Below, piece by piece: positions 11,173 to 58,430 of a stretch of DNA of 64,000 bases. The DNA lies in assembly GCA_019916065.1 (NCBI GenBank), contig CM034236.1, positions 25,306,358 through 25,370,357 of the forward strand, given 5' to 3'. The position numbers and the translations under genes were made by a program. The notes under the pieces were generated by a model. The model did no database searches. It saw only the letters and a program-made list of their open reading frames with translations, and had not been told where the DNA came from. Origin of the DNA: Vitellaria paradoxa (taxonomy: Eukaryota > Streptophyta > Magnoliopsida > Ericales > Sapotaceae). Numbering within the stretch: the first letter of the stretch is position 1; each line of letters starts with the position of its first letter.

Positions 11173-11599
11173 TGATTACACTTAAAAAGTGTAATTACAA
11201 ACTCCCTATTCTTATACTTATTATTGCATTTGGATAAGTAAACTTGAAGTTTTAGTGTTATCTTGTCATTTATGCTTCCATCTTTCTAATTGCAGGGAAA
11301 ATGACAAAGAGATTGAAGTTTATAGCCATAGAAACAGCCTAGAGGATGAAGAAAAAGTCATGCTTCAAACCTTACCTTGGGTGAGCAAGACTAGCCTAAA
11401 GACTCTTTATGAAGAAGGAAAAGAAGCAACAAAAAAGATACTTGGGGGTCGGGACCATCCATTCTAATGGTTGGGACCACAGTAAGCTAAACATGAGAAA
11501 ATACCATTCTGTGGTCTCGACCCCCTCTTTAAACGGTCGGGACCCCCATGAATCCAGAAAATCGAGTTCTGCAGCCCGCCTCTTAGGGTTTCGGGCAAC

Positions 11600-11608
11600 T
11601 ATATAAAG
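11600..11608 (+). promoter_or_regulatory. TATA box of element A 5' LTR
   Basis: TATATAAAG lies about 430 bp into the LTR, after a CGGGCAAC context. The same box is in the 3' LTR near 17427. Transcription would start about 30 bp downstream, leaving a leader of roughly 1.3 kb before gag at 12937. The leader contains the conserved structured region 11921-12356. Confidence 0.7.
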
Positions 11609-11920
11609 AACCTAATGCACGGCCGCAGGGAGAACTTCTTTTACATTTTTTTCCGAGATACTTAGAGAGATTAGATTAGTTTTAGATTAATTTAGAGAGT
11701 ATTTTTACATGATTGAAGATTGTTAATGGAGGCGCTTGGAGCTTTTCTTCTTTATTGCTGTGATGTTGAATAGTTTTCTTTTCGAACGATTTCAGCTGTA
11801 AGTTCTATTTCGTTATGTTCTTTAATAGTATGTTTTGTTTATTTCAGAGAATAGATCAATTGGTTGAGTGCTTGTTGATTGTTTTCATTTTGTTTAAAAT
11901 GGTTGTAGCGTAAAACCCTA

Positions 11921-12356
11921 GTTCTTGGTTCAACAAATCAAGAATGGGTAGTTCACCAAAAACCTTAGGATGTTCGTAGACCTTTTGCATGAGTTATGAA
12001 AGCTCATGCGTAAGAATCTACCATATTAAAAGCTATTTTAACTTGTTTCGAAAACATTCGAAACCGAAAATCTTTAACCACACTCGTTTGAAGTCACTGG
12101 TATGGGTTTTCGAATATAACTATTTGCATACTTTCGAACAAGGTGAAAAATAGGTTTCGAATTTATTTCTAGTTTCGTTTGTTTGAAAAACTTTCAGAAA
12201 CAAAGGTCTTTAACCATATCCGCTTGATATCACTGGTATTGACATTTGATTAAAATATTTTTAACACTTTTCGAATTAAACCCTAATCTAGTTTTGAATA
12301 AAAACATCCCAAGGTAAAGTAGTGAACTACCCGGACTTGAAAGTTGGATCAAGAAC
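11921..12356 (+). ncRNA. Predicted structured leader RNA, family A copy 1
   Basis: Three nested pairs of arms: P1 11921-11934 with 12343-12356 (GTTCTTGGTTCAAC/GTTGGATCAAGAAC), P2 11946-11956 with 12322-12332 (GGGTAGTTCAC/GTGAACTACCC), and P3 11962-11972 with 12305-12315 (ACCTTAGGATG/CATCCCAAGGT). Inside lie a hairpin at 11976-12021 and two copies of a repeat of about 125 bp. The same arms recur at 17749-18184, 21386-22040, 23003-23644, 30082-30723 and 32563-32998, with compensatory changes between families. That it folds as RNA is inferred from this pattern. Its function is unknown. Confidence 0.6.
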
Positions 12357-12683
12357 CTTTTTAGTATTGTGCTTGTTATTTAATTTAATTTATGAGTTGA
12401 TTTATTCACTTTAGAATTTAGAGTAAATGCTTTGTTGCACTTTAAAATGAATTTCTTTAATTAATATTTAATTCAGTTAGAACCTAAAACAAAAGTTTGA
12501 GTTGTTGAAAAATTAGTTTAAATTAATTTAGGTTCAGCTACTAACTAAGAGAACAAGTCTAGAGTTTTTAACAAAGCCCTCCCTGTGGATTCGACCTCGG
12601 ACTCATCGAGTTTTAAAACTACGACTGCCCTCTTGCACTTGAGAGGTACAACCCGAAACACTTTTTAGGATTGGTCAAGTTTT

Positions 12684-12701
12684 TGACACCGTTGCCGGGG
12701 A
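12684..12701 (+). other. Primer-binding site (tRNA-Asp type), element A
   Basis: TGACACCGTTGCCGGGGA starts six bases after the LTR end. It matches the complement of the plant tRNA-Asp 3' end (TGGCGCCGTTGCCGGGGA) except at two positions. This primer is characteristic of the Athila/Tat branch of Ty3/gypsy elements. Confidence 0.85.
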
Positions 12702-16999: not shown

Positions 17000-18505
17000 T
17001 GATTACACTTAAAAAGTGTAATTACAAACTCCCTATTCTTATACTTATTATTGCATTTGGATAAGTAAACTTGAAGTTTTAGTGTTATCTTGTCATTTAC
17101 GCTTCCATCTTTCTAATTGCAGGGAAAATGACAAAGAGATTGAAGTTTATAGCCATGGAAACAGTCTAGAGGATGAAGAAAAAGTCACGCTTCAAACCTT
17201 GCCTTGGGTGAGCAAGACTAGCCTAAAGACTCTTTATGAAGAAGGAAAAGAAGCAACAAAAAAGATACTTGGGGGTCGGGACCGTCCATTCTAATGGTCA
17301 GGACCACAGTAAGCTGAACATGAGAAAATACCATTCTGTGGTCCCGACCACCTCTTTAAACGGTCGGGAGCCCCATGAATCCAGAAAACCGAGTTCTGAA
17401 GGCCGCCTCTTAGGGTTTCAGGCAACTATATAAAGAACCTAATGCACGGCCGCAGGGAGAACTTCTTTTACATTTTTTTTCTGAGATACTTAGAGAGATT
17501 AGATTAGTTTTAGATTAATTTAGAGAGTATTTTTACATGATTGAAGATTGTTAATGGAGGCACTTGGAGCTTTTCTTCTTTATTGCTGTGATGTTGAATA
17601 GTTTTCTTTCCGAACGATTTTAGCTGTAAGTTCTATTTCGTTATGTTCTTTAATAGCATGTTTCGTTTATTTCAGAGAATAGATCAATTGGTTGAGTGCT
17701 TGTTGATTGTTTTCATTTTGTTTAAATTGGTTGTAGTGTAAAACCCTAGTTCTTGGTTCAACAAATCAAGAATGGGTAGTTCACGAAAAACCTTGGGATG
17801 TTCGTAGACCCTTCGCATGGGTTGTGAGAACTTATGCGTAAGAATCTACCATATTAAAATATATTTTAACTTGTTTTGAAAACATTCAAAACCGGAAATC
17901 TTTAATCACACTCGTTTGAAGTCACTGGTATGGGTTTTCAAATATAACTGTTTACATACTTTCTAATAAGGTTAAAAATAGGTTTCGAATTCATTTCTAG
18001 TTTCGCTTATTTGAAAAACTTTCAGAAACAAAGGTCTTTAACCATATCCGCTTGAGATCACTGGTACTGACCTTTGATTAAAATATTTTTAACACTTTTC
18101 GAATTAAACCCTAATCTAGTTTTGAATAAAAACATCCCAAGGTAAAATAGTGAACTACCCGGACTTGAAAGTTGGATCAAGAACCTTTTTAGTATTGTGC
18201 TTGTTATTTAATTTAATTTATGAGTTGATTTATTCACTTTAGAATTTAGAGTAAATGCTTTGTTGCACTTTAAAATGAATTTCTTTAATTAATATTTAAT
18301 TCAGTTAGAACCTAAAACAAAAGTTTGAGTTGTTGAAAAATTAGTTTAAATTAATTTAGGTTCAGCTACTAACTAAGAGAACAAGTTTAGAGCTTTTAAC
18401 AAAGCCCTCCCCGTGGATTCAACCTCGGACTCACCGAGTTTTAAAACTACGACTGCCCTCTTGCACTTGAGAGATACAACCCGAAACACTTTTTAGGGTC
18501 GGTCA
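17000..18505 (+). repeat. 3' LTR of element A
   Basis: 1,506 bp, colinear with the 5' LTR with scattered substitutions. It is followed at once by TSD CCTAG (18506-18510). The structured-leader arms are 17749-17762/18171-18184, 17774-17784/18150-18160 and 17790-17800/18133-18143. Here P3 is a perfect ACCTTGGGATG/CATCCCAAGGT, whereas the 5' LTR copy has one mismatch. Confidence 0.9.
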
Positions 18506-20639: not shown

Positions 20640-22448
20640 TGATTACACTTGAAAAGTGTAATTACAAACTCCACTTTTTCATAGTTATTAAGGTAATTAA
20701 GTACTTTATTTTGAAGAATTATTATTATTTTATCACTTACAAGGTTTGTTTTCTTAATTGCAGGCAAAACGGTGAATTAAATGAAGAAGATAGTGATTTT
20801 GGTGACTTAGAAGACAAAGGGGAGGATATTGAACCAACTTCGTCCAAGATGGCCCGGAGTATCCCAAGGACTTAGCTACAAATGAGGAGCAAAAGTGCAG
20901 AAAACAAGGTTTCTGTGGTCCGGACCACCTGGCGCACGGTTCGGACCACAGTGTGGTGGAACGTCGCACGGGCAATTTCAAATTTTATGGTTTTTCTGCA
21001 AGTTATAAAAAGACTACTTGAGGGCCGACTGTGGGGCTTCTTCTCTCTCGTTTTTCATTCTTCCAACAAACTTTGAGAGTTTCATGAGAGTTTTAATTGC
21101 TTACGTTAATGTTCTTACGTTGTTTTGGAGCTTTCATCGCATTCGTTTCAGCAGTTACTATTCAGAGTATTATTTTGAAGTTTGTTTCAGAGTACGTTAC
21201 ACTTCTTCATTGGATTAATGATATTATTTGAATGTTTGAAATAGAGGATTGATTGATTTCGTATGTTTAGTTCTGATTTCGTCGTTTAATAATTTTGTTT
21301 CAGTGTTTGATTTATTAAATTTATTAAATATGTCTTCAATGATTGTTTTTGTTTCGTTTACAAGCATGTTAGCATAGAAACCCTAGTTCTTGATTCAACG
21401 AATCAAGGAATGGTAGTTTACTCTAATCTATGGGATGCACGTAGACCCTTCTCAGAGTTTGCGAAAATTCATGCGTAGGGGTCTACAATTTTTAGACATT
21501 TGCGTAGACCCTTCGCATGGTTTGCGAAAGCTCATGCGTAGGGATCTACACTTTTTAAAACCTAATTCAGTTCTTTCAAAAACTTTTGAAAACAAAAATC
21601 TTTGAGTATATTCTCTGTAATCACTGGTGAAGGTTTTCGATTAAAACTTTCTTAATAATTTTGAAGAACTGAAAATTCAGATTTTGAATCATAATTTGAA
21701 TTAGTTTATTTCAAAAACTTTCGAAAACGAAAATCTTTGACTATATTCTCTGTAATCACTGGTAAAGGTTTTTGATTAAAATTTTCTTAATAATTTTGGA
21801 TAAATTAGAAAAATTGGATTTGAATTTGAATTTGAATAGGATTGTTTGAGAATCCTTCGAAAACAGAAGTTTTTGACTATATTCTCTGTAATCACTGGTA
21901 AAAACTTTTGATTAAAACTTTCGATTAAAACTTTCTCAATAATTTTCAAACAAATCTTAATTTAGGTTTTAACGCAAGCATTACAACACATCCCATAGTG
22001 AAGACGTAAGCTACCCGGAATTGATAGTTGGATCAAGGACTTCTTAAATTTATTTGCTTATTAATTGAATTGCCTTCGGTTGATTTAATTGAAGTATTTA
22101 CATTGCAATTTTTAGATTAGAATATTTTGAAGCGCATTTAACTTAGAAAAAATCCTTTTAGCTAATATTCAATTCCTTGAAATCAAAAATCAAAAGTTAA
22201 ATTGTTGAAATTTTGTTAATAGGTTGTTAAGTTGTTTTAATTTGAATTTTAAATTTGCAAAACCCTAGGAATTAGTTTTAATTAATCTTCAAACATAGTT
22301 TACATTCAAATTTAGGATTTCCATTATAACCTAGAAACTAAATAACGTAGGCTCCCTGTGAATTCGACCTCGGACTCACCGAGTTAAAACTACACCGCAC
22401 ACCCTTGCACTTGGGGGTTAATTTAGACGCACTTTTCATTAGCGGTCA
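20640..22448 (+). mobile_element. Solo LTR, family B
   Basis: 1,809 bp from TGATTACACTTGAAAAG to AGCGGTCA, with a perfect 5-bp TSD and no internal region. It is a product of LTR-LTR recombination. It matches the LTRs of element B (1,770 bp) and is slightly longer. It contains GGTCCGGACC/GGTTCGGACC motifs at about 20917-20945, a TTATAAAAAG box at 21003, and the structured leader 21386-22040 with two GTAGACCC hairpins (21441-21486 and 21504-21549). Three copies of a repeat of about 125 bp lie between 21570 and 21960. Confidence 0.9.
21386..22040 (+). ncRNA. Predicted structured leader RNA, family B solo LTR
   Basis: The arms are P1 21386-21399/22027-22040 (GTTCTTGATTCAAC/GTTGGATCAAGGAC, all paired with two G-U), P2 21412-21421/22006-22015 (GGTAGTTTAC/GTAAGCTACC, one G-U) and P3 21428-21437/21989-21998 (CTATGGGATG/CATCCCATAG). 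Compared with family A, P2 and P3 contain paired changes that keep Watson-Crick pairing. The enclosed region is longer because it has a second GTAGACCC hairpin and a third tandem repeat. Confidence 0.6.
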
Positions 22449-22610: not shown

Positions 22611-24380
22611 TGACCGCTTTTAGAAAATGCGTCTAAATTAACCCCCAAGTGCAAGGGTGTGCGGTGTAGTTTTAACTCGGTGAGTCCGAGGTCGAATTCA
22701 CAAGGAGCCTATGATATTTAGTTTCTAGGTTAAATAGAAATCCTAAATTTGATTGTAAACTAAGTTTGAAAATTAATTAAAACTAATTCCTAGGGTTTTG
22801 CAAGTTCAAAATTCAAATTAAACTAACTTAACAACCTATTAACAAAATTTCAGCAATTTAATATTGATTGTTGATTCAAGGAGTAAAATATTAGCTAAAC
22901 AAATTTTTCCTAATTTAAATGCGCAGCAAAATAAACTAATCTAAAAACTGCAATGTAAATCAAACAAAGGCAATTCAATTAATAAGCAAATAAATTTAAG
23001 AAGTCCTTGATCCAACTATCAATTCCGGGTAGTTTACGTCTTCACTATGGGATGGGTTGCAATACTTGCGTTAAAACCTAAATTAGGATTTGTTTGAAAA
23101 TTATTGAGAAAGTTTTAATCAAAAGCTTTTACCAGTGATTACAGAGAATATAGTCAAAAACTTCTGTTTTCGAAGGGTTTCCAAACAATCCTATTCGAAT
23201 TCGGATTCAATTCCAATTCTTCTAGTTTATCCAAAATTATTAAGAAAATTTTAATCGAAAACCTTTACCAGTGATTACAGAGAATATAGTCAAAGATTTT
23301 CGTTTTCGAATGTTTCTGAAATAAACTAATTCAAATTAGGATTCAAAATCTGAATTTTCAGTTCTTCAAAATTATTAAGAAAATTTTAATCGAAAACCCT
23401 TACCAGTGATTACAGAGAATATAGTCAAAGGTTTTCGTTTTCGAAAGTTTTTGAAAGAACTGAATTAGGTTTTAAAAAGTGTAGATCCCTACGCATGAGC
23501 TTTCGCAAACCATGCGAAGGGTCTACGCAGACGTCTCAAAGTTGTAGACCCCTACGCATGAGCTTTCGCAAGCTCTGCGAAGGGTCTACGTACATCCCAT
23601 AGATCAGAGTAAACTACCCTTTCTTGATTCGTTGAATCAAGAACTAGGGTTTCTACGCTAGCATGATTTTAAACAAAACGGATATATTCGTCGAAAACAT
23701 ATTTAAAAGATGTGCTAAATCAAACAACGAAACAAGATTCTTAAACAACTAAATCAAAACTAAAGGTGAGAAATCAATCAAACTTCTATTTCGAATATTC
23801 GAATAATACCATTAATCCAAAGAAAAATTGTAACGTACTCAAAAACAAACTTCGAAACAAAACGCTGAATGGCGACTGCTGAAACGAATGTGATGAAAGC
23901 TCCGAAACCAAGTAAGAACATCCACGTAAGTAAAACAAAACCTGAAAAAATAAAAATATCGAAAAGACGAAGAAGAAGAAGTAGTAGCCGTCCTCCCTAA
24001 GTTGGCCCCCAAGCAGTCCTATTTAAACTTGTAAAAGAAACCCTAAAACTTAAATTGCCCGCGCGACGGTCCACCATACTGTGGTCCGGACCGTGCGCCA
24101 GGTGGTCCGGACCACAGAAGCCTTTTTTCTACACTTTTGCTCCTCATTTGCCGCTAAGTCCTTGGGGTACTCCGAGCCATCCCTAACGAAGTTGGTTCGA
24201 TATCCTCCCTTTCATCTCCAAAGTCACTATTTTCTTCGTTTAATTCCCCATTTTCCCTGCAATTAAGAAAACAAATCTTATAAGTGATAAAATAATGAGA
24301 ATTCTCCAAAATAGAGTACTCAATTACCTTAATAACCATGAAAACGTGGAGTTTGTAATTACACTTTTCAAGTGTAATCA
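22611..24380 (-). repeat. 3' LTR of element B
   Basis: 1,770 bp, read on the minus strand from TGATTACACTTGAAAAG to AGCGGTCA. It is colinear with 29690-31460 at a fixed offset of 7,079. The structured-leader arms lie at 23003-23016 and 23631-23644 (P1), with P2 and P3 inside. GGTCCGGACC occurs twice near 24083-24115, as part of a larger inverted repeat CTGTGGTCCGGACC/GGTCCGGACCACAG. Confidence 0.92.
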
Positions 24381-28573: not shown

Positions 28574-29494
28574 CTATAGGTGTGTCCTTTTAATCTTAAG
28601 GGTCTCTATTTCTCGGGTCAGAGTTGCTAATTTTGCCTTAAGATCATCGGTTTCACTTAAGTGATGCAAACCTCGAATAGGAGTACCATTAATATTCTGA
28701 GTATTCTGAGGTCCCGTGGTATCCCAAGTTTGTGCATTTTCAGCTAAGAATTCAAGATATTCATAAGCTTCTTCAGGGGTTTTATCGTAAAACTGCCCAT
28801 TGCACATTGTTTCCACAAATTGTTTCAATTGTGGTGTCAGGGCTCCGTAGAAGATGCTCGCTAGACGCCAGACTTCAAATCCATGGTGAGGACAGGAATG
28901 TAAGAGAGTTTTAAACCTCTCCCAACTTTGGTAGAATGTCTCACCATGTTGTGAAGCGAAGTTCAGAATCTGATGCTGAATTGCATCAGTTCTATTAGGT
29001 GGGAAAAATTTCTTTAAGAATTTGGCTTGCATTTCATCCCAGGTGCGAATGGAATTAGATGGTAGGAATTCAAACCATCTAGCAGCCTTATCTTGCAATG
29101 AAAATGGGAATAACTTAAGAAATACCAGCTCTATTTGGCATCCTTGATCCTTTATAGTGACACAAATGTTCCTAAAGCGAGTTAAGTGGTCATATGGATT
29201 CTCAGAATCCATCCCATGGAAAGTAGGTAACAATTGGATCATCCCTGGTTTAAAGTGAAAAGTTTGGTTTACAGGCCAAACTATGCAGGATTCAGGAGTA
29301 TGCCTATTCTGCTGCAAGATATCTCTCAAGGATTGTCTTGCTGCGACAGCTTGATCTTCAGCAGCCATTTCTAATGGTGGAGTAGGAATTCTAGGAGTTT
29401 GAGTTTCTCCTAAAGAGGACTCTAATTCTAAAGGAACAGCTAAGGGATCAGGACGCTGTAATCTACCGTCTTCCCCTCGAATCCAATTGCTCAT
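28574..29494 (-). CDS. gag: Gag core of element B (retrotransposon gag family)
   Basis: 306 codons from MSNWIRGEDGRLQRPDPL. The Gag capsid domain (Retrotrans_gag) is clear: FKPGMIQLLPTFHGMDSENP, then HLTRFRNICVTI, FPFSLQDKAARWFEFLP, WDEMQAKFLKKFFPP and ETFYQSWERFKTLLHSCPHH. It ends in LKQFVETMCNGQF and TPEEAYEYLEFLAENA. This is the order of Athila/Tat Gag. The frame closes at KIKRTHL, where an indel in an A run shifts the zinc-knuckle region to another frame. The start lies about 170 bp downstream of the primer-binding site. Its 5' UTR holds a GGTCCGGACC motif near 29530, like those in the LTR. Confidence 0.85.
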   Translation of the reverse strand: MSNWIRGEDGRLQRPDPLAVPLELESSLGETQTPRIPTPPLEMAAEDQAVAARQSLRDILQQNRHTPESCIVWPVNQTFHFKPGMIQLLPTFHGMDSENPYDHLTRFRNICVTIKDQGCQIELVFLKLFPFSLQDKAARWFEFLPSNSIRTWDEMQAKFLKKFFPPNRTDAIQHQILNFASQHGETFYQSWERFKTLLHSCPHHGFEVWRLASIFYGALTPQLKQFVETMCNGQFYDKTPEEAYEYLEFLAENAQTWDTTGPQNTQNINGTPIRGLHHLSETDDLKAKLATLTREIETLKIKRTHL

Positions 29495-29665
29495 AAGCTA
29501 GGAAAAGAATCAGAGAAAGGGTACTGTGGTCCGGACCAGAGTGTAGATGGTCGAGACCACAGAATACTAATTTGGATCAAAAAGGTTTTTTTTTTTTTTT
29601 TTATTTTTTTTTAGAAAAAGAAAATTAACTTAAAAATGAAAACAACCTAAAAACTAAAATTTGGC

Positions 29666-29683
29666 TCCCCGGCAACGGCGCCA
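29666..29683 (-). other. Primer-binding site, exact tRNA-Asp match (element B)
   Basis: On the minus strand TGGCGCCGTTGCCGGGGA lies six bases downstream of the 5' LTR end. It is an 18-base complement to the plant tRNA-Asp 3' end, the primer typical of Athila/Tat elements. Confidence 0.9.
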
Positions 29684-29689
29684 AAAACT

Positions 29690-31460
29690 TGACCGCTTTT
29701 AGAAAATGCGTCTAAATTAACCCCCAAGTGCAAGGGTGTGCGGTGTAGTTTTAACTCGGTGAGTCCGAGGTCGAATTCACAAGGAGCCTATGATATTTAG
29801 TTTCTAGGTTAAATAGAAATCCTTAATTTGATTGTAAACTAAGTTTGAAAATTAATTAAAACTAATTCCTAGGGTTTTGCAAGTTCAAAATTCAAATTAA
29901 ACTAACTTAACAACCTATTAACAAAATTTCAGCAATTTAATATTGATTGTTGATTCAAGGAGTAAAATATTAGCTAAACAAATTTTTCCTAATTTAAATG
30001 CGCAGCAAAATAAACTAATCTAAAAACTGCAATGTAAATCAAACAAAGGCAATTCAATTAATAAGCAAATAAATTTAAGAAGTCCTTGATCCAACTATCA
30101 ATTCCGGGTAGTTTACGTCTTCACTATGGGATGGGTTGCAATACTTGCGTTAAAACCTAAATTAGGATTTGTTTGAAAATTATTGAGAAAGTTTTAATCA
30201 AAAGCTTTTACCAGTGATTACAGAGAATATAGTCAAAAACTTCTGTTTTCGAAGGGTTTCCAAACAATCCTATTCGAATTCGGATTCAATTCCAATTCTT
30301 CTAGTTTATCCAAAATTATTAAGAAAATTTTAATCGAAAACCTTTACCAGTGATTACAGAGAATATAGTCAAAGATTTTCGTTTTCGAATGTTTCTGAAA
30401 TAAACTAATTCAAATTAGGATTCAAAATCTGAATTTTCAGTTCTTCAAAATTATTAAGAAAATTTTAATCGAAAACCCTTACCAGTGATTACAGAGAATA
30501 TAGTCAAAGGTTTTCGTTTTCGAAAGTTTTTGAAAGAACTGAATTAGGTTTTAAAAAGTGTAGATCCCTACGCATGAGCTTTCGCAAACCATGCGAAGGG
30601 TCTACGCAGACGTCTCAAAGTTGTAGACCCCTACGCATGAGCTTTCGCAAGCTCTGCGAAGGGTCTACGTACATCCCATAGATCAGAGTAAACTACCCTT
30701 TCTTGATTCGTTGAATCAAGAACTAGGGTTTCTACGCTAGCATGATTTTAAACAAAACGGATATATTCGTCGAAAACATATTTAAAAGATGTGCTAAATC
30801 AAACAACTGAAACAAGATTCTTAAACAACTAAATCAAAACTAAAGGTGCGAAATCAATCAAACTTCTATTTCGAATATTCGAATAACACCATTAATCCAA
30901 AGAAAAATTGTAACGTACTCAAAAACAAACTTCGAAACAAAACGCTGAATGGCGACTGCTGAAACGAATGTGATGAAAGCTCCGAAACCAAGTAAGAACA
31001 TCCACGTAAGTAAAACAAAACCTGAAAAAATAAAAATATCGAAAAGACGAAGAAGAAGAAGTAGTAGCCGTCCTCCCTAAGTTGGCCCCCAAGCAGTCCT
31101 ATTTAAACTTGTAAAAGAAACCCTAAAACTTAAATTGCCCGCGCGACGGTCCACCATACTGTGGTCCGGACCGTGCGCCAGGTGGTCCGGACCACAGAAG
31201 CCTTTTTTCTACACTTTTGCTCCTCATTTGCCGCTAAGTCCTTGGGGTACTCCGAGCCATCCCTAACGAAGTTGGTTCGATATCCTCCCTTTCATCTCCA
31301 AAGTCACTATTTTCTTCGTTTAATTCCCCGTTTTCCCTGCAATTAAGAAAACAAATCTTATAAGTGATAAAATAATGAGAATTCTCCAAAATAGAGTACT
31401 CAATTACCTTAATAACCATGAAAACGTGGAGTTTGTAATTACACTTTTCAAGTGTAATCA
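29690..31460 (-). repeat. 5' LTR of element B
   Basis: 1,771 bp, nearly identical to 22611-24380. It contains the terminal hairpin at 31434-31460, paired GGTCCGGACC motifs at about 31162-31194, a TATA-like box near 31100 on the minus strand, and the structured leader 30082-30723. P2 and P3 are perfectly paired here: GGGTAGTTTAC/GTAAACTACCC and CTATGGGATG/CATCCCATAG. Confidence 0.92.
30082..30723 (-). ncRNA. Predicted structured leader RNA, element B 5' LTR
   Basis: In the 5' LTR this region would be transcribed into the genomic RNA leader. P1 is 30710-30723 with 30082-30095 (GTTCTTGATTCAAC/GTTGGATCAAGGAC). The enclosed part has two GTAGACCC...GGTCTAC hairpins (30562-30670 on the plus strand) and three tandem repeats, each with the word CTGTAATCACTGGTAAA (30200-30510). 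Nothing in it codes for protein. Confidence 0.6.
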
Positions 31461-32231: not shown

Positions 32232-33733
32232 TGATTGACCCTAAAAAGTGTTTGGGTTCTACCTCTCAAGTGCAAGAGGGCAATCGTAGTTTTAAACTCG
32301 GTGAGTACCAAGTTCGAATCCACAGGGAGGGCTTTGTTAAAAGCTTTAGACTTGTTCTCTTAGTTAGTAGCTGAACCTAAATTAATTTAAACAACTTTTT
32401 TAGCAACTCAAACTTTTGTTTTAGGTTGTAAATGAATTTAATATTAATTAAAGAAATTCAATTTAATTTTAAAATGCAAACAAACCATCTACGTACTCTA
32501 AATTTTAAAGAGAATAAATCAACTCAAAAATTAAATTAAATAACAAGCATAATACTAAAGAGGTTCTTGATCCAACTTTCAAGTCTGGGTAGCCCATTAC
32601 TTTACCTTGGAATGTTTTTATTCAAATCTAGATTAAGGTTTAATTCGAAAAGTGTTAAGAAAATTTTAATCAAAGGTCAGTACCAGTGATCTCAGGTGGA
32701 CATGGTTAAAGACCTTTGTTTCTGAAGGTTTTTCAAACAATCAAAACTAGAAGTGAATTCGAAACTTATTTTTAATCTTGTTCGAAAGTATGTAAACGGT
32801 TATATTCGAAAACCCATACCAGTGACTTCAAACGAGTGTGGTTAAAGATTTTCTGTTTCGAATGTTTTCGAAACAAGTTAAAATAGATTTTAACACGGTA
32901 GATCCTTACGCATGAGCTCTCACAACCCATGTGAAGGGTCTACGAACATCCCAAGGTTTTTTGTGAACTACCCATTCTTGATTCGTTGAACCAAGAAGTA
33001 GGGTTTTACGCTAACATGATTTTAAACAAAACGAAAGAAATAAACATTAGCATAAACATTCGATCTACCACTAGAAAACAATAAATCATATATTAAATTA
33101 ATGAAACGAAAGGAGACTTACACGGAAAGTAACTCTGAAACTACGTAATGAAAGAGTAGTGCAGCGAAGAACAACCAAACATCAAACAACTCCATAAACA
33201 ACACAAATAATTGAAAACTCTCTCAAAAATATTCTAAAACTCTCAAGAAATAATCTAAAAAGTATTTGGAGACGTCCCTTGTTCGGGCGCACAAGGGTGA
33301 CATATATAGGTTAAGAAAAACCCTAGAAAAACGAAGTAAAACGCGTGCCCAGGGCTTTGCTGGGGTCCGGACCCTTCGAGGAGGGGTGGGGACCCCAGAA
33401 TGTCAATTTTTCAAATTCCTTCACTGTGGTCCGGACCCTTTGGGGAGGGGTCCGGACCCCAGAACCTTGGTTGTTCCATCTTTCTTTCTCCTTCGCTCTG
33501 AGTCCTTGGGTTGGTTCAAACCATCTTTGATGAAGCTTGAATCCCAACTCCTCCTTGGTCTTTTAAGCCCTTTCCAACACTATTAACTTCGCTTTTCTCA
33601 TCCATTTCCCTACAAATAAGATGATAAAACTTGTAAGTTACAAAATAATATCAAAACTTTAAATTTACCCATTCAAATGCATTAAAATGTATCTAAATAT
33701 AAAGTTTGTAATTATACTTTTCAAGTGTAATCA
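32232..33733 (-). mobile_element. Solo LTR related to family A, minus orientation
   Basis: 1,502 bp, read on the minus strand from TGATTACACTTGAAAAGT to GGGTCAATCA, with TSD GTGAT at 32227-32231 and 33734-33738. Ending at GGTCA as in element A would spoil the duplication, so this copy seems to carry four extra terminal bases. It contains GGTCCGGACC twice in a GGGGTCCGGACCC context (33360-33465) and the structured leader arms 32563-32576/32985-32998. It is diverged from both A and B and probably represents a third subfamily. Confidence 0.85.
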
Positions 33734-40613: not shown

Positions 40614-43600
40614 CCAAACCAAACCAAACCAAACCAAGCCTTTTCCCACTAGGTGGGGTCGGCTATATGGATTTGTCGACGCCAATTTGATCTGTTTAGG
40701 GGCATGTCCTCCGATAAATCTAGGTAGGTTAGGTCATGTTTAATGGTTTCTTTCCTGCTTCTCTTGGGTCTTCCTCTACCTCTCCTACTCCTTGACAATC
40801 TCCATACTTTCACACCTTCTAACAGGTGCCTCTGCTGGACGTCTTCTAACATGGCCAAACCATCTTAATCGATTTTCTCTCATTTTATCTTCAATCGGTG
40901 CTATTCCTACTTTGCCCCTAATCTCCTCGTTCCTAATCCTATCTTTCCTTGTAATCTCGCACATCCACCTTAACATCCTCATCTCCGCAACTGCCATCTT
41001 CTGACCATGATTATGCTTTACTGCCCAACACTCTGATCCATATAGCAGCGCTGGTCTAACCGCTACCTTATAATACTTTCCTTTCACCTTGAGGGGGATT
41101 TTTCGGTCGCACAAAACCCCCGAAGCACTCCTCCATTTGGTCCATCCAGCTTGAATCCTGTGACTTACATCAGTATCAATCCCTCCATCTTATTGCACCA
41201 TAGATCCAAGGTACCTAAATTTATCTTTCTCTACAATCTTTTGTGTGCCTAAACTTACTTTTATACTACTCGTTATCCTACTTTGACTAAACTTACATTT
41301 CATATATTCCGTCTTGCATCGGCTTAGCCTAAACCCTTTTGTCTCTAATGTATCCCGCCACAATTCTAACTTAGCATTCACTCCTTCTCTCGTCTCATCT
41401 ACTAAAACAATATCATCTGCAAATAGCATACACCACGGCACATCATCCTGAATATGTCTTGTAATCTCATCCATAACTAAAGCAAACAAGTACGGGCTTA
41501 ACGCTGAGCCTTGATGTAAACCAATTGTGATAGGGAACTCATTAGTCTCTCCGCCAGTCGTCTGTATAGATGTCATGGCTCTATCATACATGTCCTTTAT
41601 CGCCTCAATATATGCGATACACGCTCCTTTCTTTTCCAGTACTCTCCATAGAATCTCCCTAGGAACCCGATCATATGCCTTCTCTAAATCGATGAACACC
41701 ATATGTAAATCTTTTTGACGTTCTCTATACTGTTCCATTAACCTCCTCAAGAGAAAGATAGCCTCCATGGTTGATCTTCCAGGCATGAAACCAAGTTGGT
41801 TCTCTGAAACGTTTGTTGTCCTTCTTAGTCTTCTCTCAATAACTCTCTCCCATAATTTCATCGTATGGCTTATCAATTTAATCCCGCGATAGTTCGCACA
41901 GTTCTGAATATCTCCTTTGTTCTTGTATATGGGTATAAGGATACTTTTCCTCCATGCATCAGACATCTTCTTGCTCTTTAGCACTACATTAAAAAGTTTT
42001 GTCAACCAACTTATGCCATCCTCTCCTAAGCACCTCCAAACCTCAATAGGGATACCATTTGGCCCAACCGCTTTCCCATTCTTCATCATTTTTAATACTT
42101 CTTTTACTTCTTCCCTACTAATTCTCCTATAGAACATAAAATTTAATTCTTCCCTAAAAGTGGTAAACTGCCCCAAATGTATGTCACTACTACTGCTTTC
42201 GTTAAATAACTTGTAGAAGTAGCTCTTCCAACGCTCCTTTATCTCCTCTTCCTTTACTAATACCTTTTCATCCTCATCCTTAATGCATTTAACTTGGTTT
42301 AAATCCTTGGTCTGTCTATCTCTAGATTTAGCAAGCTTGAATATTTCTCTTTCGCCCTCCTTAGTGTCAAGTCGCCTATATAAATCCTCAAATGTCTTTG
42401 CCTTAACCTCACTAACTGCCTTTTTGGTTTCTCTTCTAGCTTCTCTATACCTCTCCAAGTTCACTTCATTTCGGTCGTTTTGCCAAGATTTAAAACACTC
42501 TCTTTTAACTCTTATCTTGTCTTGGACGGCCTCGTTCCACCACCATGCCTCTTTCTGTGCCGGAGCATTCCCTTTGGATTCTCCTAACACTTCTTTCCCT
42601 ACCCTCCTAATACACTTTGCTACTTTATCCCACATAATATTTGCACTCTCATTTACCGTCCAAATATTTTCCTCTAGTACTCTTTCCCTAAATGCTGCTT
42701 GCTTATCACCTTTTAAGTTCCACCATTTAGTCTTTGAGCATCTATACGACTTCTTTTTTCTAGCCCACCTTTGAAGCTGCACATCTATGACCAACAACCT
42801 ATGTTGGGCAGTCAAACTCTCCCCCGGTATAACTTTACAATCTTTACAAGCTACACGATCTCTTTTCCTAGTTAAGAAGAAGTCAATCTATGTCTTTGAG
42901 GAGCCACTCTTATAAGTCACCAAATGTTCCTCTCTCTTCCTAAAAAAGGTGTTCGTCACCATGAGATCATAAGCCACTGCAAACTCCAAAATATCCTTCC
43001 CTTCTTCATTTCTATCACCGTAACCATATCCCCTGTGTACTCCTATGTATCCATCTATGTCGCGTCCTATATGACCATTCAAATCTCCTCCTATGAAGAC
43101 CATCTCTCCTTGAGGTATCTCTAATAGCATTCTTTCCAAGTCTTCCCAAAACTTCTCCTTATGTACATCTCCTAAGCCCACCTGGGGGGCATAAGCACTA
43201 ATTATGTTTACTATCTCTTCTCCTAACACTAACTTAATTGTAGTAATCCTATCTCTACAGTGTTTCGCATTAACTATATCTTCCTTTAGGTCCTTGCTTA
43301 CTACTATGCCGACCCCATTTCTCGATCTATTAAGTCCCGTATACCATAACTTATACCCAGTCCTCTCAATCTCTTTAGCTTTCTGTCCCACCCACTTCGT
43401 CTCTTGCAAGCAAGCAATTGCAATTCTTCTCCTTTCCATTGTATCCACCACTTCCATAAGTTTCCCAGTTAAGCTCCCAATATTCCAAGTACCTAATCTC
43501 AGCCTTCTATTTTGGACTAGCTTCCTTGCCCCCCCACTCGTCCAGGAAAGTGCGAGGACCCTTGCCTATTTAACACCGCACCCGGGCACCGATGTAGCGG

Positions 43601-44599: not shown

Positions 44600-47191
44600 T
44601 GTAATACCTCATACTTTGTCTTAATATGAGTATATGATTTTTGATGTATTTTGGAAGTCAAGATATGTTAATTTAGTGATATGGATCATTTATGGTGTTT
44701 TGGAGTTGAGAACTTTGGACGAAATGGGTTATGCAGTCAAATGTGACATTTTGGCCAAGTGCTGAAAAATGGGGGGAACCTTGGGCGCCCACCTGAAAAG
44801 AGCTTGGGTGCCCAAGGCATAGTGGTTTTGACAGATAGGTGTTTTTCTGCATTTCCAGTCGAGCCTTACCCTATTAACACCTATACCTAGCTAGGGGTGA
44901 GGGGAGACCTGAGAATCACTGTTTGGGGGTTAAAAATATTGTTATATATATATTTGGTTGATTTGATGCAAGAGAGAGAGAGAGAAGTGGCTTGGAAGAA
45001 GAGAGAATTTGGGTGAGAAGCAAAGGAAGAGCAAAGGAAGAACAAAGGAGGAACCGGGTGGAGATTCAAAGGTAGGTCTTCCAAATCTTCATAGAACTCA
45101 AATTCCTTTTGTAAAATTGAAATTAGAACCCTAAGAAACCTTCCTATGTCATTTATTTTTAGTTTTGATCAAGGAGGGAGAAGATAGAGGCCATCAAAGT
45201 TTGAGGGTTTGGAAGCTCAAGACACCTACTTGTTGATCTATCTTTTTACCACTTGAGGTAGGGATTTAATGCCTCATTCTTACATATGTGTTGTGTAACA
45301 AGGAGTAGATTACCATTAGAAGACCCTCTTTAAGTGTTGGTTTCATGTATGGAAGAAAATGGGAGTTATACACATGTCTATATATATGTATAGGTTGAGA
45401 GAGTGAAAGTAGTGTTTTGATCCATAACATGACTTGTGGTTGATCAAAACTCAAATTTTTGATTTTGTTTGAAGCCTAAGAACCTTGTGTTGATGTTAGA
45501 AACTTGAAACTTGAGGTATTTTTACATTAACTTGGTCAATTTGAGGTCCCAAGGGTGAAAAATCATGAAATCAGAAAACAGGACATGAAACCCGGAACTT
45601 GGCCCAGGCTGTGGGCGCACGAAGGGGACACAGTCGGGCGCTCAAGACATTAAGGCATGGACGCCCAAGCCCCTTGGGTGCACGGCCGAGTGTCAGCTTG
45701 GGTGCCCACTGAGCCTAGGTTACTTTTCTGACATTGTTTAGTTTAGTCTTCTACTTTGGGCATATGGAAGAATTGGTAACTTGTTTTTACATGAAACTTT
45801 TAATTGATTAATTACATGGATTTTTAAAAGGGAAATGAGCTTTTAAAAGTGATTAAGGAGTGTTTAACTTAAGCTTGTGGGATTTAACTTGAAAGGGGCA
45901 AGTGAAAGTCACCTTGAATTGCATGAATTGGAAGTCTACTTTGAAGTAAGAGTCTCAATTGAATAGAATTGTGAATATGCCTTGATGTAAACTAAATGTT
46001 GAAGTTTATGAACTTGTGATTGATTAAGTGAAATGTGACTTGACAAAGGGACTCATGTTCTTAATGTCGGTAAATAGGGGATGCTTAATACGATTTGATC
46101 AATGTGATATGTAATGAACCATAAGATGAACCTTAACATTAACATGTGTGTTGAAAGGTATTGATGATGAATGTGAATCTATGAAAGATGAGATTGTATG
46201 GTATGAATGATGGTTTGTGTGCCGGGGGTCGTGGTGGGGTGCGGTAAATAGTAAGGGTTTAGAGAGTAACTTTAGGTTGAAAGCCCCAGAACCTGCGCAG
46301 GGTTTGGTGTCAATGCCATTGGGTTAGTAGCCCACAACATTGTGTGTGTTTTGGCTCCTCGTGGCCCTGGATGGCGATCCTAAATGACGACATCGGTATA
46401 TCATTTTTGTTTGATATTGGCCCATAAAAGACGATAACGTGTATGCACCAATCCCCCGATGACTTGTTTGGTTATGGTTGTATAATGTGATGATGAATAG
46501 ATGATGATATGAATACGGTTATTTGTAGGAATGATATTCGAATGATGAAATAGTGTTGAAATGTGAATGGAATTGAAGTTGTATTGCAAAATATAACATT
46601 AACCGAAATTGAAATCTTAAACTTTGACATTGTTGCATGAGTATATGTTTCCACCTAGTTTGGTTATTGGTTATAATAATGTAATGTTATGAATATAGAA
46701 AATGTTAAAATGATTAACCATACTTGAGACGCATTGCATGATTAGATTTGCATATCATATATGTTATTTTGAGACATCGTGGGCACAAGTGGACCCGTGC
46801 TCACGTCCCTACAGACTTTGATGCAGATACAGGCAATAACCATCAGGTGGGCTAATGGGGTTGGACTAGGAGGTTATGCATGAGCCCAACCAAGCTTAGC
46901 AAAGCTCTCTGGGTCATCTAGTTTAAATTTCTTTTGGAATTTGTAATATTGTACACTGATAGACCTTTTCGATTTGGTTGTAACGGCCTTAAGGCCTAAG
47001 CTATGTAATTTGGGAATTGAACATGTAGTTAGTGACCTGACAACAGTCAAGGTTGACTTATGTTATCTTATTTTATGTCTCGGGCTCACTAGCTTACGTT
47101 GTGTTGCTCTGATCATGGGATTGGTTATGTTAGTGCATGTTGTGTGTGTTTCTCACTCACCCCTTAGGTCACGAGATCCTGGGGCGTGACA
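44600..47191 (+). repeat. 5' LTR of the Tekay-like element
   Basis: 2,592 bp, TGTAATACC to GCGTGACA. Landmarks: GGGCGCCC/GGGTGCCC words near 44783-44815 and 45605-45715, a TATATATATA box near 44942, a GA repeat at 44971-44988, and a block of small palindromes at 46218-46460 (CCTGCGCAGG, GGGTTAGTAGCCC, GGCCCATAAAAGACG). A GTGGGCACAAGTGGACCCGT block lies near 46780. The last block is also in the LTR at 4201, in diverged form. Confidence 0.9.
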
Positions 47192-47194
47192 GGT

Positions 47195-47206
47195 TGGTAT
47201 CAGAGC
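47195..47206 (+). other. Primer-binding site (tRNA-Met type), Tekay-like element
   Basis: TGGTATCAGAGC starts three bases after the LTR end. It is the usual complement to initiator tRNA-Met in plant retrotransposons. Confidence 0.9.
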
Positions 47207-47320
47207 ACTAGGTTGGAATACTTAGGGACATGGGAAGTCTTGCATCTCATATTGCATGCTTGAATGTGATATAATTGAATTTTTATCTTGGAACCTAATT
47301 TGTCTGGTTTAAATTTTTAG

Positions 47321-47919
47321 ATGGGATTTGAGAAAAGGGAGAGCAGTGGTACTAAAGCCTAGTCAGTTGAAGAAGAGATAGTGTGGCCTAGTGATGATGT
47401 CTTTATCCAAGTGGCAACCGAGGGTTTAACTGAGGCACAAACCCACAATGTGATAGGGAACATAGAAGAGATAAGTAGGGTGCCAGCAACTTTTGGTCAT
47501 CAAATGGTACCCTACTATGGGATGCCATGCCCAGTTCTATATTCAGCCCCTTACCCATATCAAAGGGTGATGCCTTACCAGTTGCCTGTTCAGTGCCAGT
47601 CAGCTTACCCGGTGATGCTAGTACAAAATGTGACTGTGATTGTACCTACCCTTTTCAGCAAATCCACTCATGACACCAAGTGTAGTGGTAGAACCTAACC
47701 CAAGCAGTCAACATGTTAATCTATAGGAGGCTAGCACTAATGTTAGGGGGATGAGTGGAAGCTCTAATAGTGAGGAAGATCGGCTGCGGGGACTATGTGC
47801 AGGCTGTCGTAGGCGGGGACAGATACGTTACATGGTGCCCTCAGCAATGTATCAAGTGTTGTACTTATTGTGGTAGGAGGAGTCACTCTCATAGCTCTTC
47901 TCCGTATTGTAGGAATTGA
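47321..47919 (+). pseudogene. Extra leader ORF, Pro/Tyr-rich with Cys-rich end
   Basis: Between the primer-binding site and gag, ATG 47321 opens MGFEKRESSGTKA, has a stop at 47360, and then continues in frame as SVEEEIVWPSDDVF. A region rich in Tyr, Pro and Met follows (YYGMPCPVLYSAPYPYQRV). After one or two frame breaks it ends in a Cys-rich part: CAGCRRRG, then CPQQCIKCCTYCGRRSHSH and PYCRN before TGA 47917. The end resembles a zinc-binding module (CX2CX4H...C). I do not recognise the family. It is separate from the Gag zinc knuckles at 49240 and 49340. Codon damage matches the rest of the element, so it may once have been a real protein. Confidence 0.5.
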
Positions 47920-48242
47920 GAAATAAGAATGTAAAAGGGAAAATTTTGGAAAGGCAATTCCCTTAGTGGTAGTTGGAAAGGTTGATAGTCTAAGGACTTA
48001 TGCTATGTTATGTACTCTTTTAATATCAGCTGGTAGAGTAACTTGAGAACTTCTAATGTTAGAACTTCTATGGTAGTGCTAATGGAAGTAAGATTGTGTT
48101 GTTATGTTGAACCTGTATAAATGTATTGAACTGTTATATTGTCGTTATGAGATGAAGTTATGCTTTAGTATAATCTTAGATGTCGATTTAATATTGTTAT
48201 TTTATGCTTTGATATACTTTAGATATAATGTTGCTGCATGCA

Positions 48243-49436
48243 ATGGGAGTTAGAGGCTGAGGCCGAGGTAATGGTCAAGGTAGGGGTAGAGGGAGAGAAC
48301 ATGCTCCTGTTCAGCAAGAACAGGAAACACATCAAAGTGCAGTGGCTGAGGCGCTGCCTATTGCACAACAGGATGACTTAGGAGAGGAGGAGGCGTAGTC
48401 GAGGGCACCAGAGGTTCAACAACCAGGAGCCATGGACGCTGGGCCGGTATTACAACAATTAGCGGCAGCTATGGCCGCAATAGCAGGTGGGGCTCGAGTT
48501 GGACCCCAGACACAAGCGCAAGTAGGCCCAACTGCTTTGGAGAAATTCAGGAGGATGAAGCCTCCAACTTATGATGGTGTGGCTGACACGGATGTGGCAA
48601 AACAGTTCTTGGAGGAATGCGAGAAGATATTAGTGGCGATGGAAATTACTGATCCTTCTACTAGCATTATGTTGACTGCATTTTAGCTAGTGGGTCGGGC
48701 GTCAACTTGGTGGACTAGTTTGAAAGATATAGGGGGATCAGTGGGTCTCACTTGGGAGAGGTTCAAGGAAAAGTTCAGGGATCACTTCTTCCCTCAATAT
48801 TTAAGGGATGCTAAGAGGGAGGAATTTGCTGGGTTGATACGGGGGACTAAGTCGATGTTGGAGTACGAAAGGAAATTTTCAGATTTATCAAAGTATGCAC
48901 CTGAGTTGGTCTCTACTACTCATTTGAAATGCAGGAGATTTGAAAAGGGATTGAGACCAACTCTAAAGAATACGATGGTGATGTTGGGACTAGAAGATTA
49001 TGAGACTTTGGTAAATCGAGCCATGACAGTGGAAAGGGACTTGAATGAGACCAAAGTCATTTATGAAAGTCAGCGAGGCAAGACCATAGGAACTCCCCAA
49101 GAAGGAGTTAGCAGAAAAAGGATTAGGGGCAGTTCATCAGCTCCACAAGCCCAATCATCTTATCAAGGAAGTACTGCACCCCCACCCATGGAGAGGTCAA
49201 GGGGGACCTCTCAAAGGCAAATTGTATGCTTTAATTGCAAACAGGAGGGCCACAAAAATACGGAGTGTCCTAAGAGTAAAAAATAGGTTGAATTAATAGG
49301 ACCAATGAGAAGTGGTCAGGCTAGAGTGAACAGGGCATGCAATGGTTGTGGAGAGATGGGGCATATTCAAAGGTTTTGCCCTCAAAACCAGTGGGGCGCA
49401 GGAGGAAGGATGGCACAACCTGGACAGTGGTTATAG
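48243..49436 (+). pseudogene. gag: Gag of the Tekay-like element with two zinc knuckles
   Basis: ATG 48243 opens an RG-rich start (GRGNGQGRGRGREHAP), like other chromoviral Gags. In-frame stops lie at 48258, 48396, 48684 and 49284. The capsid domain reads FRRMKPPTYDG, FLEECEKILVAMEI, GRASTWWTSL, WERFKEKFRDHFFPQ and EYERKFSDLSKYAPELV. Two CCHC knuckles follow in the same frame: CFNCKQEGHKNTEC (about 49230) and CNGCGEMGHIQRFC (about 49340), with a stop at 49284 between them. The frame stays in phase with protease at 49632, so gag-pol was one long ORF. Confidence 0.85.
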
Positions 49437-49631
49437 GGAGCCCGCCCATCGGCCTCCTAGTCAGTACAGCAGCAGTATCAGCAGAGGAGTATCCCACAAA
49501 GGACGATGCAAGCTGGAACATCACAACAGTCGAGGGTGAACCCGTAAGGACAAAGGTTTGGTCGGCCACAAAATGTTCAGCCACAAGGCAGGGTGTTTAC
49601 TGTGGCACAATAGGAGGCACCAGCTGAGCCT

Positions 49632-50223
49632 ATGGTGACAAGAGGTATTTTTCGTGTCTATTCATCCAATGCTATTCTACTCTTAGACATGGGAGCATCT
49701 CATTCATTTGTCGTCGCATCATTTGTATATGCCTTGGGATTAGATGTTAGCCCATTGGAATTGTTTTTGTGTGTTGAGACCCCCATAGCGGGATTTTCTT
49801 TCTTTGACTCAAGCGTGTAAGGGATGTGAATTAAGGGTAATCGATGTTTTTGATGGGTGTGAGTTCGTCTCAACTTCTGACTTAATTGTATTGGAGATGA
49901 GGGGTTTTGATATCATACTTGGTATGGATTGGCTTATGTCCTACCAAGCCATGATTGACTCTAATAAGCGTAAGGTAACCTTAACTATGCCAGAGGGAGA
50001 TCAAATTCGCTTCTTTACAAACCGGTGTGAAATAAGAGAAGTGTCACTCATGAAAGATCAGAGGAAGGATGAATTGTGTAACTTGTTTGCTTGCATGGTT
50101 ATAGAAGAAGAGGACAGGGAACAGAGACATGAATTGTCTAAGGTTGTGAATGAATTTCCTGAGGTGTTTCCTGAGGAGATATCTGGGTTGCCACCTGAAC
50201 TGGGAAGTAAAGTTTTGCATTGA
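49632..50223 (+). pseudogene. pol: Aspartic protease of the Tekay-like element
   Basis: LLDMGASHSFV near 49680 holds the retropepsin motif with D-M-G in place of D-S/T-G. A frameshift near 49800 moves to the frame that reads LRVIDVFDGCEF, FDIILGMDWL and KVTLTMPEGD, the second half of chromoviral protease. It then passes into the RT linker ([19 protein letters not shown]), where a second frameshift near 50200 occurs. Confidence 0.8.
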
Positions 50224-51470: not shown

Positions 51471-51479
51471 GCAGGAAGA

Positions 51480-53030: not shown

Positions 53031-53085
53031 AGTTATGTTATGTACTAAATTTTGAGGATGAAATTTTTTTTGAAGGGGGGGAGAA

Positions 53086-55728: not shown

Positions 55729-55734
55729 CATATT

Positions 55735-55739
55735 GACAG
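55735..55739 (+). repeat. Target-site duplication GACAG, left copy
   Basis: GACAG here and at 58426-58430 flank the solo LTR exactly. The uninterrupted CACTA sequence across both insertions would be CATAT-T-GACAG. Confidence 0.9.
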
Positions 55740-58425: not shown

Positions 58426-58430
58426 GACAG

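Follow-up and report, generated by a model that had tools for sequence, protein, structure and literature searches.

A constrained, predicted long-range RNA stem behind a short upstream frame in the leader of plant LTR retrotransposons: a likely shunt-like configuration

Results

Retrotransposons and LTRs in the window

The window analysed here, a stretch of 64,000 nucleotides from Vitellaria paradoxa at C4:25306358-25370357 of a 667-Mb assembly, holds two LTR retrotransposons, A and B (the latter on the minus strand), together with two solo LTRs, one of type B and one of type C, the C copy being on the minus strand (Table 1). The six LTRs amount to about four independent lineages, as the copies starting at 11173 and 17000 flank one element and those starting at 22611 and 29690 another. 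An initial annotation of this DNA had described six LTR copies carrying three nested arm pairs, and all of them were located where it had placed them. It had also called these elements pol-less. This description holds as far as the reverse transcriptase is concerned, for which no match was found among the ORFs of at least 150 aa of A and B, but it is incomplete, because element B encodes a Gag (PF03732, 2e-19) and an aspartyl protease (PF13650), the only two families matched by ORFs of that length in the two elements.

The B Gag has 164 relatives at E-values up to 0.001, the named ones among the 120 listed being from plants, with Gags from Salix, Juglans and Carya among the closest named, and the first residues of its product are similar to those of several homologues. 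A primer binding site core follows the 5' LTR of B as well as LTR A5, where we take it to be of the tRNA-Asp type. The family is presumably Athila-like, a label that we derive from the features of the Gag and of the primer binding site; a Gag of the PF03732 family, the mark by which Athila-type Ty3 elements were recognised here, is the one found in B.

The LTRs start with a near-palindrome (TGATTACACTT, A or G, AAAAGTGTAATTA), seen at 11173-11197, 17000-17024, 20640-20664 and in the minus-strand copies, with one base different in the C LTR. Elsewhere in the window, the region 44600-58426 contains three related stretches of another repeat (75-93% identical), with an integrase ORF at 51389-52660 between two of them, while an ORF for an RVT_1 reverse transcriptase and a DUF4216 ORF lie outside the A and B elements (41190-42887 and 63095-63754, both on the minus strand). 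In the genome, the 40 best matches of the B domain are all 99-100% identical to the query, and several of them form pairs about 7 kb apart, which points to a very recent expansion of the B subfamily. One genomic copy (L053) has a B-type LTR followed by a different internal region, where the first ATG past the stem (+498) opens an ORF of 334 codons, and one leader may therefore serve more than one internal region. The internal region of another locus (L108) was considered as an autonomous partner and discarded, as it has no ORF above 153 aa.

Table 1. Features of the LTR retrotransposons and of their leaders in the window
Feature	Positions	Strand	Remarks
LTR A5 (left LTR of element A)	11173-12677	+	95.95% identical to right LTR
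TATA-like box (TATATAAA)	11600-11607	+	LTR position 428; transcript start probably about 30 nt downstream
4-codon uORF of A5 (MVVA, stop)	11899-11913	+	stop 7 nt before P1
P1 5' arm	11921-11934	+	first helix base; 14 bp with 12343-12356
P1b 5' arm (TCAAG)	11938-11942	+	5 bp, between P1 and P2
P2 5' arm	11946-11956	+	11 bp with 12322-12332
P3 5' arm	11963-11972	+	10 bp with 12305-12314
P4 hairpin inside P3	11976-12021	+	18 pairs; two tandem copies in B LTRs
Loop with repeat units of about 135 nt	12043-12304	+	2 units in A/C, 3 in B; motif TCACTGGT in each unit in window copies
P3 3' arm	12305-12314	+
P2 3' arm	12322-12332	+
P1b 3' arm (CTTGA)	12336-12340	+
P1 3' arm	12343-12356	+	last helix base
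Candidate landing stretch after stem	12357-12456	+	78% A+T, weakly folding
Primer binding site core after A5	12687-12701	+
LTR A3 (right LTR of element A)	17000-18505	+	paired with A5
27-codon uORF of A3	17658-17741	+	stop 7 nt before P1
Stem domain of A3	17749-18184	+
B solo LTR	20640-22448	+
3-codon uORF (MLA, stop) of B solo LTR	21366-21377	+	stop 8 nt before P1
Stem domain of B solo LTR	21386-22040	+
B element downstream LTR	22611-24380	-	99.7% identical to 29690-31460
Stem domain of B downstream LTR	23003-23644	-
uORF (MLA, stop) of B downstream LTR	23653-23664	-	stop 8 nt before P1
gag ORF of B element	28574-29494	-	starts at first ATG past stem
ATG-free tract of B element, stem end to gag ATG	29495-30081	-	587 nt, 0 ATG against 5.7 expected (P 0.001)
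B element upstream (5') LTR	29690-31460	-	99.7% identical to 22611-24380
Stem domain of B upstream (5') LTR	30082-30723	-
3-codon uORF (MLA, stop) of B upstream (5') LTR	30732-30743	-	stop 8 nt before P1
C solo LTR	32232-33733	-
Stem domain of C solo LTR	32563-32998	-
uORF (MLA, stop) of C solo LTR	33006-33017	-	stop 7 nt before P1

A predicted stem of two distant arms and its loop

The two distant arms are predicted to fold into a stem of about 40 base pairs. In addition to the helices P1, P2 and P3 described initially, we found the short helix P1b and the hairpin P4. The whole domain measures 436 nt in A and C and 642-655 nt in B, and the distance between the arms differs mainly because the number of 135-nt units varies and the hairpin is duplicated. 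The arms of P1-P3 pair in all six LTR copies of the window apart from a few mismatches. For P3 of subfamily A, CCTTGGGATG is the sequence of the copy at 17000; the copy at 11173 (CCTTAGGATG) has one A-C mismatch at 11967. The B solo LTR and the copy at 32232 were both thought to keep pairing through G-U wobbles; the former has one U-C mismatch in P2, and the latter has two mismatches, C-C in P1 and C-A in P2.

Minimum free energy folds recovered the P1-P3 stem in 6 of 6 window domains, and the mean pair probabilities computed in the full leader of A5 and B, respectively, were 1.00 and 0.97 for P1, 0.99 and 0.77 for P1b, 1.00 and 1.00 for P2, 0.89 and 1.00 for P3. The 436-nt domain of A5 has a folding z-score of -8.0 (none of 100 shuffles reaches the native value) and the 642-nt domain of B one of -15.2 (none of 20 shuffles), compared with -10.5 for the antisense strand of B (20 shuffles). 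The window gave no Rfam match at the gathering score, and the 5' arm pattern had no match in the viral contigs scanned.

Considering the 108 genomic copies introduced in the next section, the P4 hairpin was found in 104 of them and as two hairpins in 37 of the 38 B copies. The duplication in B (for example in 30082-30723 and 23003-23644, both on the minus strand) has a step of 63 bp and its two copies are slightly different. The exact motif TCACTGGT is present twice in 42 of the 47 A/C copies and three times in 35 of the 38 B copies, while the 23 D/other copies have none (3 copies), one (14) or two (6). The B loop is predicted to fold into repeated hairpins, and a signal for packaging or recognition may reside in the TCACTGGT motif or in P4.

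Two minor observations concern the repeat units. In group D (L087-L105) several domain lengths (437, 572 and 708) are separated by steps of about 135 nt, so that the repeat number varies inside one subfamily. Moreover, a satellite-like tandem array (L107, G000:C10:21698400-21699950, with pattern matches around it over G000:C10:21697026-21703192) has a unit of 472 bp, with 94% matches over the 3.3 units read, and contains the repeat units of the leader domain together with its 3' arm side; with up to 4 mismatches allowed, no 5' arm was detected in the array.

Covariation and selection across genomic copies

Pairing was followed in 108 copies taken from the window and from the same 667-Mb genome (47 A/C, 38 B and 23 D/other). 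These copies come from the best 40 scored of 2720, 3152, 2739 and 2694 first-look candidates of the respective DNA queries, of which a part was retrieved, with a further 20 of the 58 matches of one exact pattern; being composed of best-scoring matches and of part of one pattern's matches, the sample is not random. Six rows are window copies (L001, L029, L030, Wbs, Wc and Wa3), many of the 108 rows are LTR pairs of one element, and the B rows are near-identical. The D/other class joins 19 D rows to the A copies L007, L015 and L023 and the B-type L080, with changed P3 pairs. L106, whose 5' arm was not found, and L107 and L108, which are not LTR domains, were left out.

In this set 4145 of 4317 arm cells are paired, 3892 by Watson-Crick pairs and 253 by G-U, the remainder being 45 A-C and 127 other combinations. 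Some pairs have been lost group-wise, namely one in P1b (G-A in 56 of 108 copies), one in P2 (G-A in 14) and one in P3 (U-U in 11). Watson-Crick variants occur at P3-2 (C-G, U-A and A-U), P3-3 (U-A and A-U) and P2-9 (C-G and U-A). Double Watson-Crick changes, at a pairing of at least 80%, were observed in 3 of the 40 partner pairs and in 4 of 1560 non-partner combinations, all four of which come from a few columns that differ between groups. A pairing level of 85% is reached by 512 of the 1560 non-partner combinations; it does not discriminate and was therefore not used as evidence.

Within the window, A/C and B differ at 4 of 40 positions of the 5' arm and at 5 of 40 positions of the 3' arm, and three of these differences fall on partners (hypergeometric 0.0039 for the coincidence alone). 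All three lead from one Watson-Crick pair to another, and the paired changes at three positions noticed in the initial annotation were thus recovered as Watson-Crick swaps between subfamilies. When the five distinct window rows are considered, P4 included, 96.9% of the cells pair, against at most 45.6% with the arms slid, and the covariation score is above that of all 500 shuffles; the count of doubly changed pairs was reached by 187 of 500 shuffles and that of further pair types by 474 of 500.

We then used a tree built with FastTree without the arms, midpoint-rooted and without support values, on which changes were placed by Fitch parsimony. A global MAFFT alignment of the whole domain was not used for pair counts, since it misaligns the 3' arms where repeat numbers differ. 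Of the changes starting from a paired state, 21 of 30 keep the pairing on internal branches, compared with 51 of 122 on terminal ones (Fisher 0.005); the internal ones divide into 15 of 21 on branches with at least three copies (Fisher 0.011 against terminal branches) and 6 of 9 on branches with two. Changes that start from an unpaired state, 8 on internal and 9 on terminal branches, do not enter these counts, the 8 internal ones including the group-level swaps at P2-9 and P3-2, for which the parsimony root is unpaired. Terminal branches can be regarded as a near-neutral control, because they carry mostly mutations that followed insertion.

The direction of the changes is informative about the molecule under constraint. 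Watson-Crick pairs became G-U rather than A-C in a ratio of 17:5 on internal branches (p 0.017) and of 11:2 on branches with at least three copies (p 0.022), while on terminal branches the ratio of 45:34 is not significant (p 0.26). A cause acting at the DNA level should treat G-U and A-C alike, which makes the sense RNA the most likely target of the constraint. Selection for a long-range helix, already suspected from the window copies, is thus supported by the 108 copies, on the sense strand, and independent drift of the arms, named at the outset as the outcome that would speak against a helix, is not what these copies display.

A short frame ending just before the stem

The most telling feature of the leader, absent from the initial annotation, is a short upstream frame (uORF), whose stop lies 6-8 nt before P1 in 107 of 108 copies (7 nt in 64 copies, 8 nt in 39 and 6 nt in 4); the sole exception, L101, has lost the stop. 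The stop is also that of longer in-frame forms, which have 12-32 codons. In A5, for instance, forms of 27 and 32 codons share the stop of the 4-codon frame, while LTR A3 has TTG at the site of the 4-codon start of A5. The shortest in-frame form has 3 codons in 57 copies, 7 in 41, 4 in 4 and 12-27 in 5, so that it is of 3, 4 or 7 codons in 102 of 108. Since the shortest forms differ while the position of the stop is fixed, the start moved and the stop stayed.

Among the ATGs lying no more than 95 nt from the stem, 285 share the frame of the uORF and 33 do not, and of the 14 ATG positions that recur in two or more copies 10 share it (binomial 0.004 against one third). A single short in-frame ATG is not a rare event by chance, since one appears in 10-22% of shuffles; the weight of the frame evidence is in the replacement of starts and in the frame bias, not in a single in-frame ATG. 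Upstream ATGs other than those of the frame usually come before it, and the 280 nt preceding the stem are free of ATGs outside the frame in only 4 of 27 A/C copies, none of 31 B copies and 1 of 18 D/other copies.

Transcript start and the path to gag

In the A and C LTRs of the window a TATA-like box is located about 310-320 nt before the stem. Across the genome, a TATA-like box 200-400 nt before the stem was found in only 6 of 27 A/C copies, a single one of 31 B copies and 7 of 11 D/other copies; given this minority, a transcript start placed by such a box is tentative.

The stretch following the stem is composed of 77-78% A+T in A5 and B, and its folding energy is -0.12 to -0.17 kcal/nt, compared with -0.29 to -0.34 in the stem; with an unpaired probability of 0.41-0.44 against 0.36 for the whole leader, it is only slightly more open. 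From the stem to gag, no ATG was found in any of the 12 B copies in which both the primer binding site and the gag ATG were recognised (the primer binding site was recognisable in 14 of 30 B loci, and the gag ATG in 12 of those 14). The ATG-free tract of B begins already inside the stem (0 ATG in 1065 nt from P4 on, 11.6 expected), and this inner part is not needed by a jump over the whole stem; P1-P4 of B is ATG-rich, with 5 against 2.2 expected. Past the B stem AAG is rare as well, with 5 occurrences where 11.6 are expected, and a simulation of the mutations between B and the B solo LTR gave 2.4 new ATGs expected where none is seen, a weak and only suggestive result (P 0.08).

For subfamily A, the sequence after the stem of A5, up to 12940, has 6 ATGs against 5.7 expected, i.e. 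no depletion. The first ATG past the stem belongs to an ORF of 2 codons, not to gag, in 6 of the 8 A loci, and in L007 ORFs of 2 and 9 codons are followed by one of 305 codons at +583. The stem itself encloses 5-7 ATGs in each of the six window copies.

Discussion

A shunt-like model for the initiation of Gag

How Gag is translated through the long, ATG-rich leaders of LTR retrotransposons, whose RNA has to be kept structured for packaging, is poorly known. The family described here offers a concrete and testable model for the translation of Gag past such a leader. If both arms are part of the translated RNA, a ribosome scanning from the cap would translate the short frame and terminate at its fixed stop, where it would meet the predicted stem, whose pairing has been maintained by selection. 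It could then resume beyond the stem, in the A+T-rich stretch that would act as landing site, and in B copies the first ATG that it reaches is that of gag. In this model the skipped loop, with its hairpins and TCACTGGT, would remain folded and might be used for packaging or be recognised by the mobilising proteins. We give about even chances to the idea that the stem, together with the short frame stopping 6-8 bases before it, lets ribosomes skip the stem and start at Gag. The more general proposal, that plant LTR retrotransposons use ribosome shunting past a closed, repeat-bearing packaging module to start Gag, is more tentative and we would put it slightly below evens. Shunting had been listed in the initial annotation among several possible functions, and it gains from the uORF stop before the helix and from the ATG-free path to gag in B.

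Comparison with known leaders

In the published accounts, the shunt configuration consists of a short uORF ending just before a stable stem and of a UA-rich unstructured landing site; after termination at the uORF, the 40S subunit bypasses the stem and lands in the open UA-rich stretch (PMC5902531, PMC2241666). The spacing given there between the uORF stop and the stem is 6 nt in CaMV, 7 in RTBV and 8 in RTSV (PMC5902531, PMC2241666). In our family, 107 of 108 copies have the uORF stop a few nt ahead of the stem, the long stem predicted as stable encloses 5-7 further ATGs in the window copies, and in A5 and B it is followed by a UA-rich, weakly structured stretch that is only slightly more open than the leader. 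The leaders of plant pararetroviruses (CaMV, RTBV and other Caulimoviridae), as far as they are described in these sources, have the same uORF ending 6-8 nt before a long stem (6 and 7 in the published cases), the same ATGs inside the stem and an A+T-rich, weakly folding stretch after it, with the ATG of a long ORF coming next, as it does in B. However, here the arrangement is in the LTR of a retrotransposon in which Gag but no reverse transcriptase ORF was detected, tandem repeats of 135 nt and of varying number are enclosed by the stem, other uORFs usually lie upstream, and shunting itself is proposed from the likeness. Membership of the Caulimoviridae, whose genomes encode a movement protein, a coat protein and a reverse transcriptase, was considered and rejected, as Gag PF03732 and an aspartyl protease are the sole matches among the A and B ORFs of at least 150 aa and LTRs are present. 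The leader likely works like a shunt leader, but the family is not filed as a member of a viral family. We limit the claim to a likely shunt-like leader because, in view of the counts of ATGs and TATA-like boxes, the frame may not be the first on the RNA.

The closest precedent is the prototype foamy virus, whose leader is described as a stem-loop of 445 nt with a uORF ending in front of it, a start of Gag and predicted packaging elements within the structure (PMC5902531). Foamy virus, a retrovirus, starts Gag by shunting and keeps its packaging elements in the bypassed structure according to the same source (PMC5902531). It differs in being an animal virus in which shunting was demonstrated experimentally and a second uORF in the stem takes part (PMC5902531), whereas our case is a plant retrotransposon with tandem repeats in the stem, known from sequence alone. 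Rice tungro spherical virus (RTSV), a picorna-like RNA virus and not a retroelement, has a uORF of 6 codons ending 8 nt before the stem; its shunt leader is taken there as co-evolved with RTBV (PMC5902531), while no such partner is known here.

Among retroelements, the Gag-only TR-GAG and the Athila-like Gag elements share with our family the LTRs, the primer binding site, a Gag of PF03732 and the lack of a detected reverse transcriptase ORF. In contrast to TR-GAG, in the summary description of it that we compared, B also has an aspartyl protease; a leader structure in TR-GAG is possible. The packaging domains of HIV and FIV are, in the sources compared, likewise structured leaders between cap and gag, with long-range pairing in FIV; dimer formation or Gag binding by the present leader would be hypothetical. 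A fixed uORF stop before the stem is, to our knowledge, not a feature of HIV or FIV leaders.

The literature searched, which covered few subscription papers, yielded no account of shunting in an LTR retrotransposon. The shunt configuration itself is already known from pararetroviruses and foamy virus. If plant LTR retrotransposons use it, the mechanism of these viruses would extend into retrotransposons themselves, suggesting that shunting, by which one RNA is both packaged and translated, is old or evolved repeatedly in reverse-transcribing elements. The finding also bears on the origin of the pararetrovirus shunt configuration, which has been suggested to go back to an inverted repeat that lay in non-coding sequence of an ancestor (PMC5902531).

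Alternative explanations

The helix might instead be a domain for packaging, dimerisation or recognition in trans without any role in translation, the frame being incidental; we consider this explanation rather unlikely, although several observations fit it. The closed stem would present the P4 hairpin or hairpins and the hairpins of the 135-nt repeats to Gag, and most A/C and B copies retain one TCACTGGT in each repeat unit, the predicted fold of the B loop is one of repeated hairpins, and P4 is present in 104 of 108 copies and doubled in 37 of 38 B copies. Moreover, no reverse transcriptase ORF was found in A or B, so that recognition in trans would be needed. However, the D/other copies keep fewer exact TCACTGGT motifs, and a domain devoted to packaging does not predict that 107 of 108 copies have the stop fixed 6-8 nt away from the helix, that the start moves while the stop is fixed, or that the path to gag in B is free of ATGs. 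Packaging and shunting roles can also coexist, as reported for CaMV and foamy virus (PMC5902531).

Another explanation is that the gag mRNA starts after P4, by transcription or splicing; the 5' arm would then be absent from it and the ATG-free tract of B would be an ordinary leader. This would agree with the tract of B starting directly past P4 (0 ATG in 1065 nt) and not past the stem, and with the rarity of TATA-like boxes in the interval 200-400 nt ahead of the B stem, where only 1 of 31 copies has one. We nevertheless judge it improbable, because the A and C LTRs of the window have their TATA-like box about 310-320 nt before the stem and both arms are kept paired with a bias for the sense strand, which places them in one RNA, at least the genomic RNA.

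Finally, the domain is a long imperfect inverted repeat and its arms could be the terminal inverted repeats of an old DNA insertion, or the product of palindrome template-switch repair, without any RNA function, but this origin appears very improbable and is set aside, since the unpaired stretches between P1, P1b, P2 and P3 differ between the two sides and internal changes, unlike the private ones, significantly favour G-U over A-C in the sense strand; in addition, no flanking target duplication was seen by eye, and the sense RNA of B folds better than its antisense (z -15.2 against -10.5).
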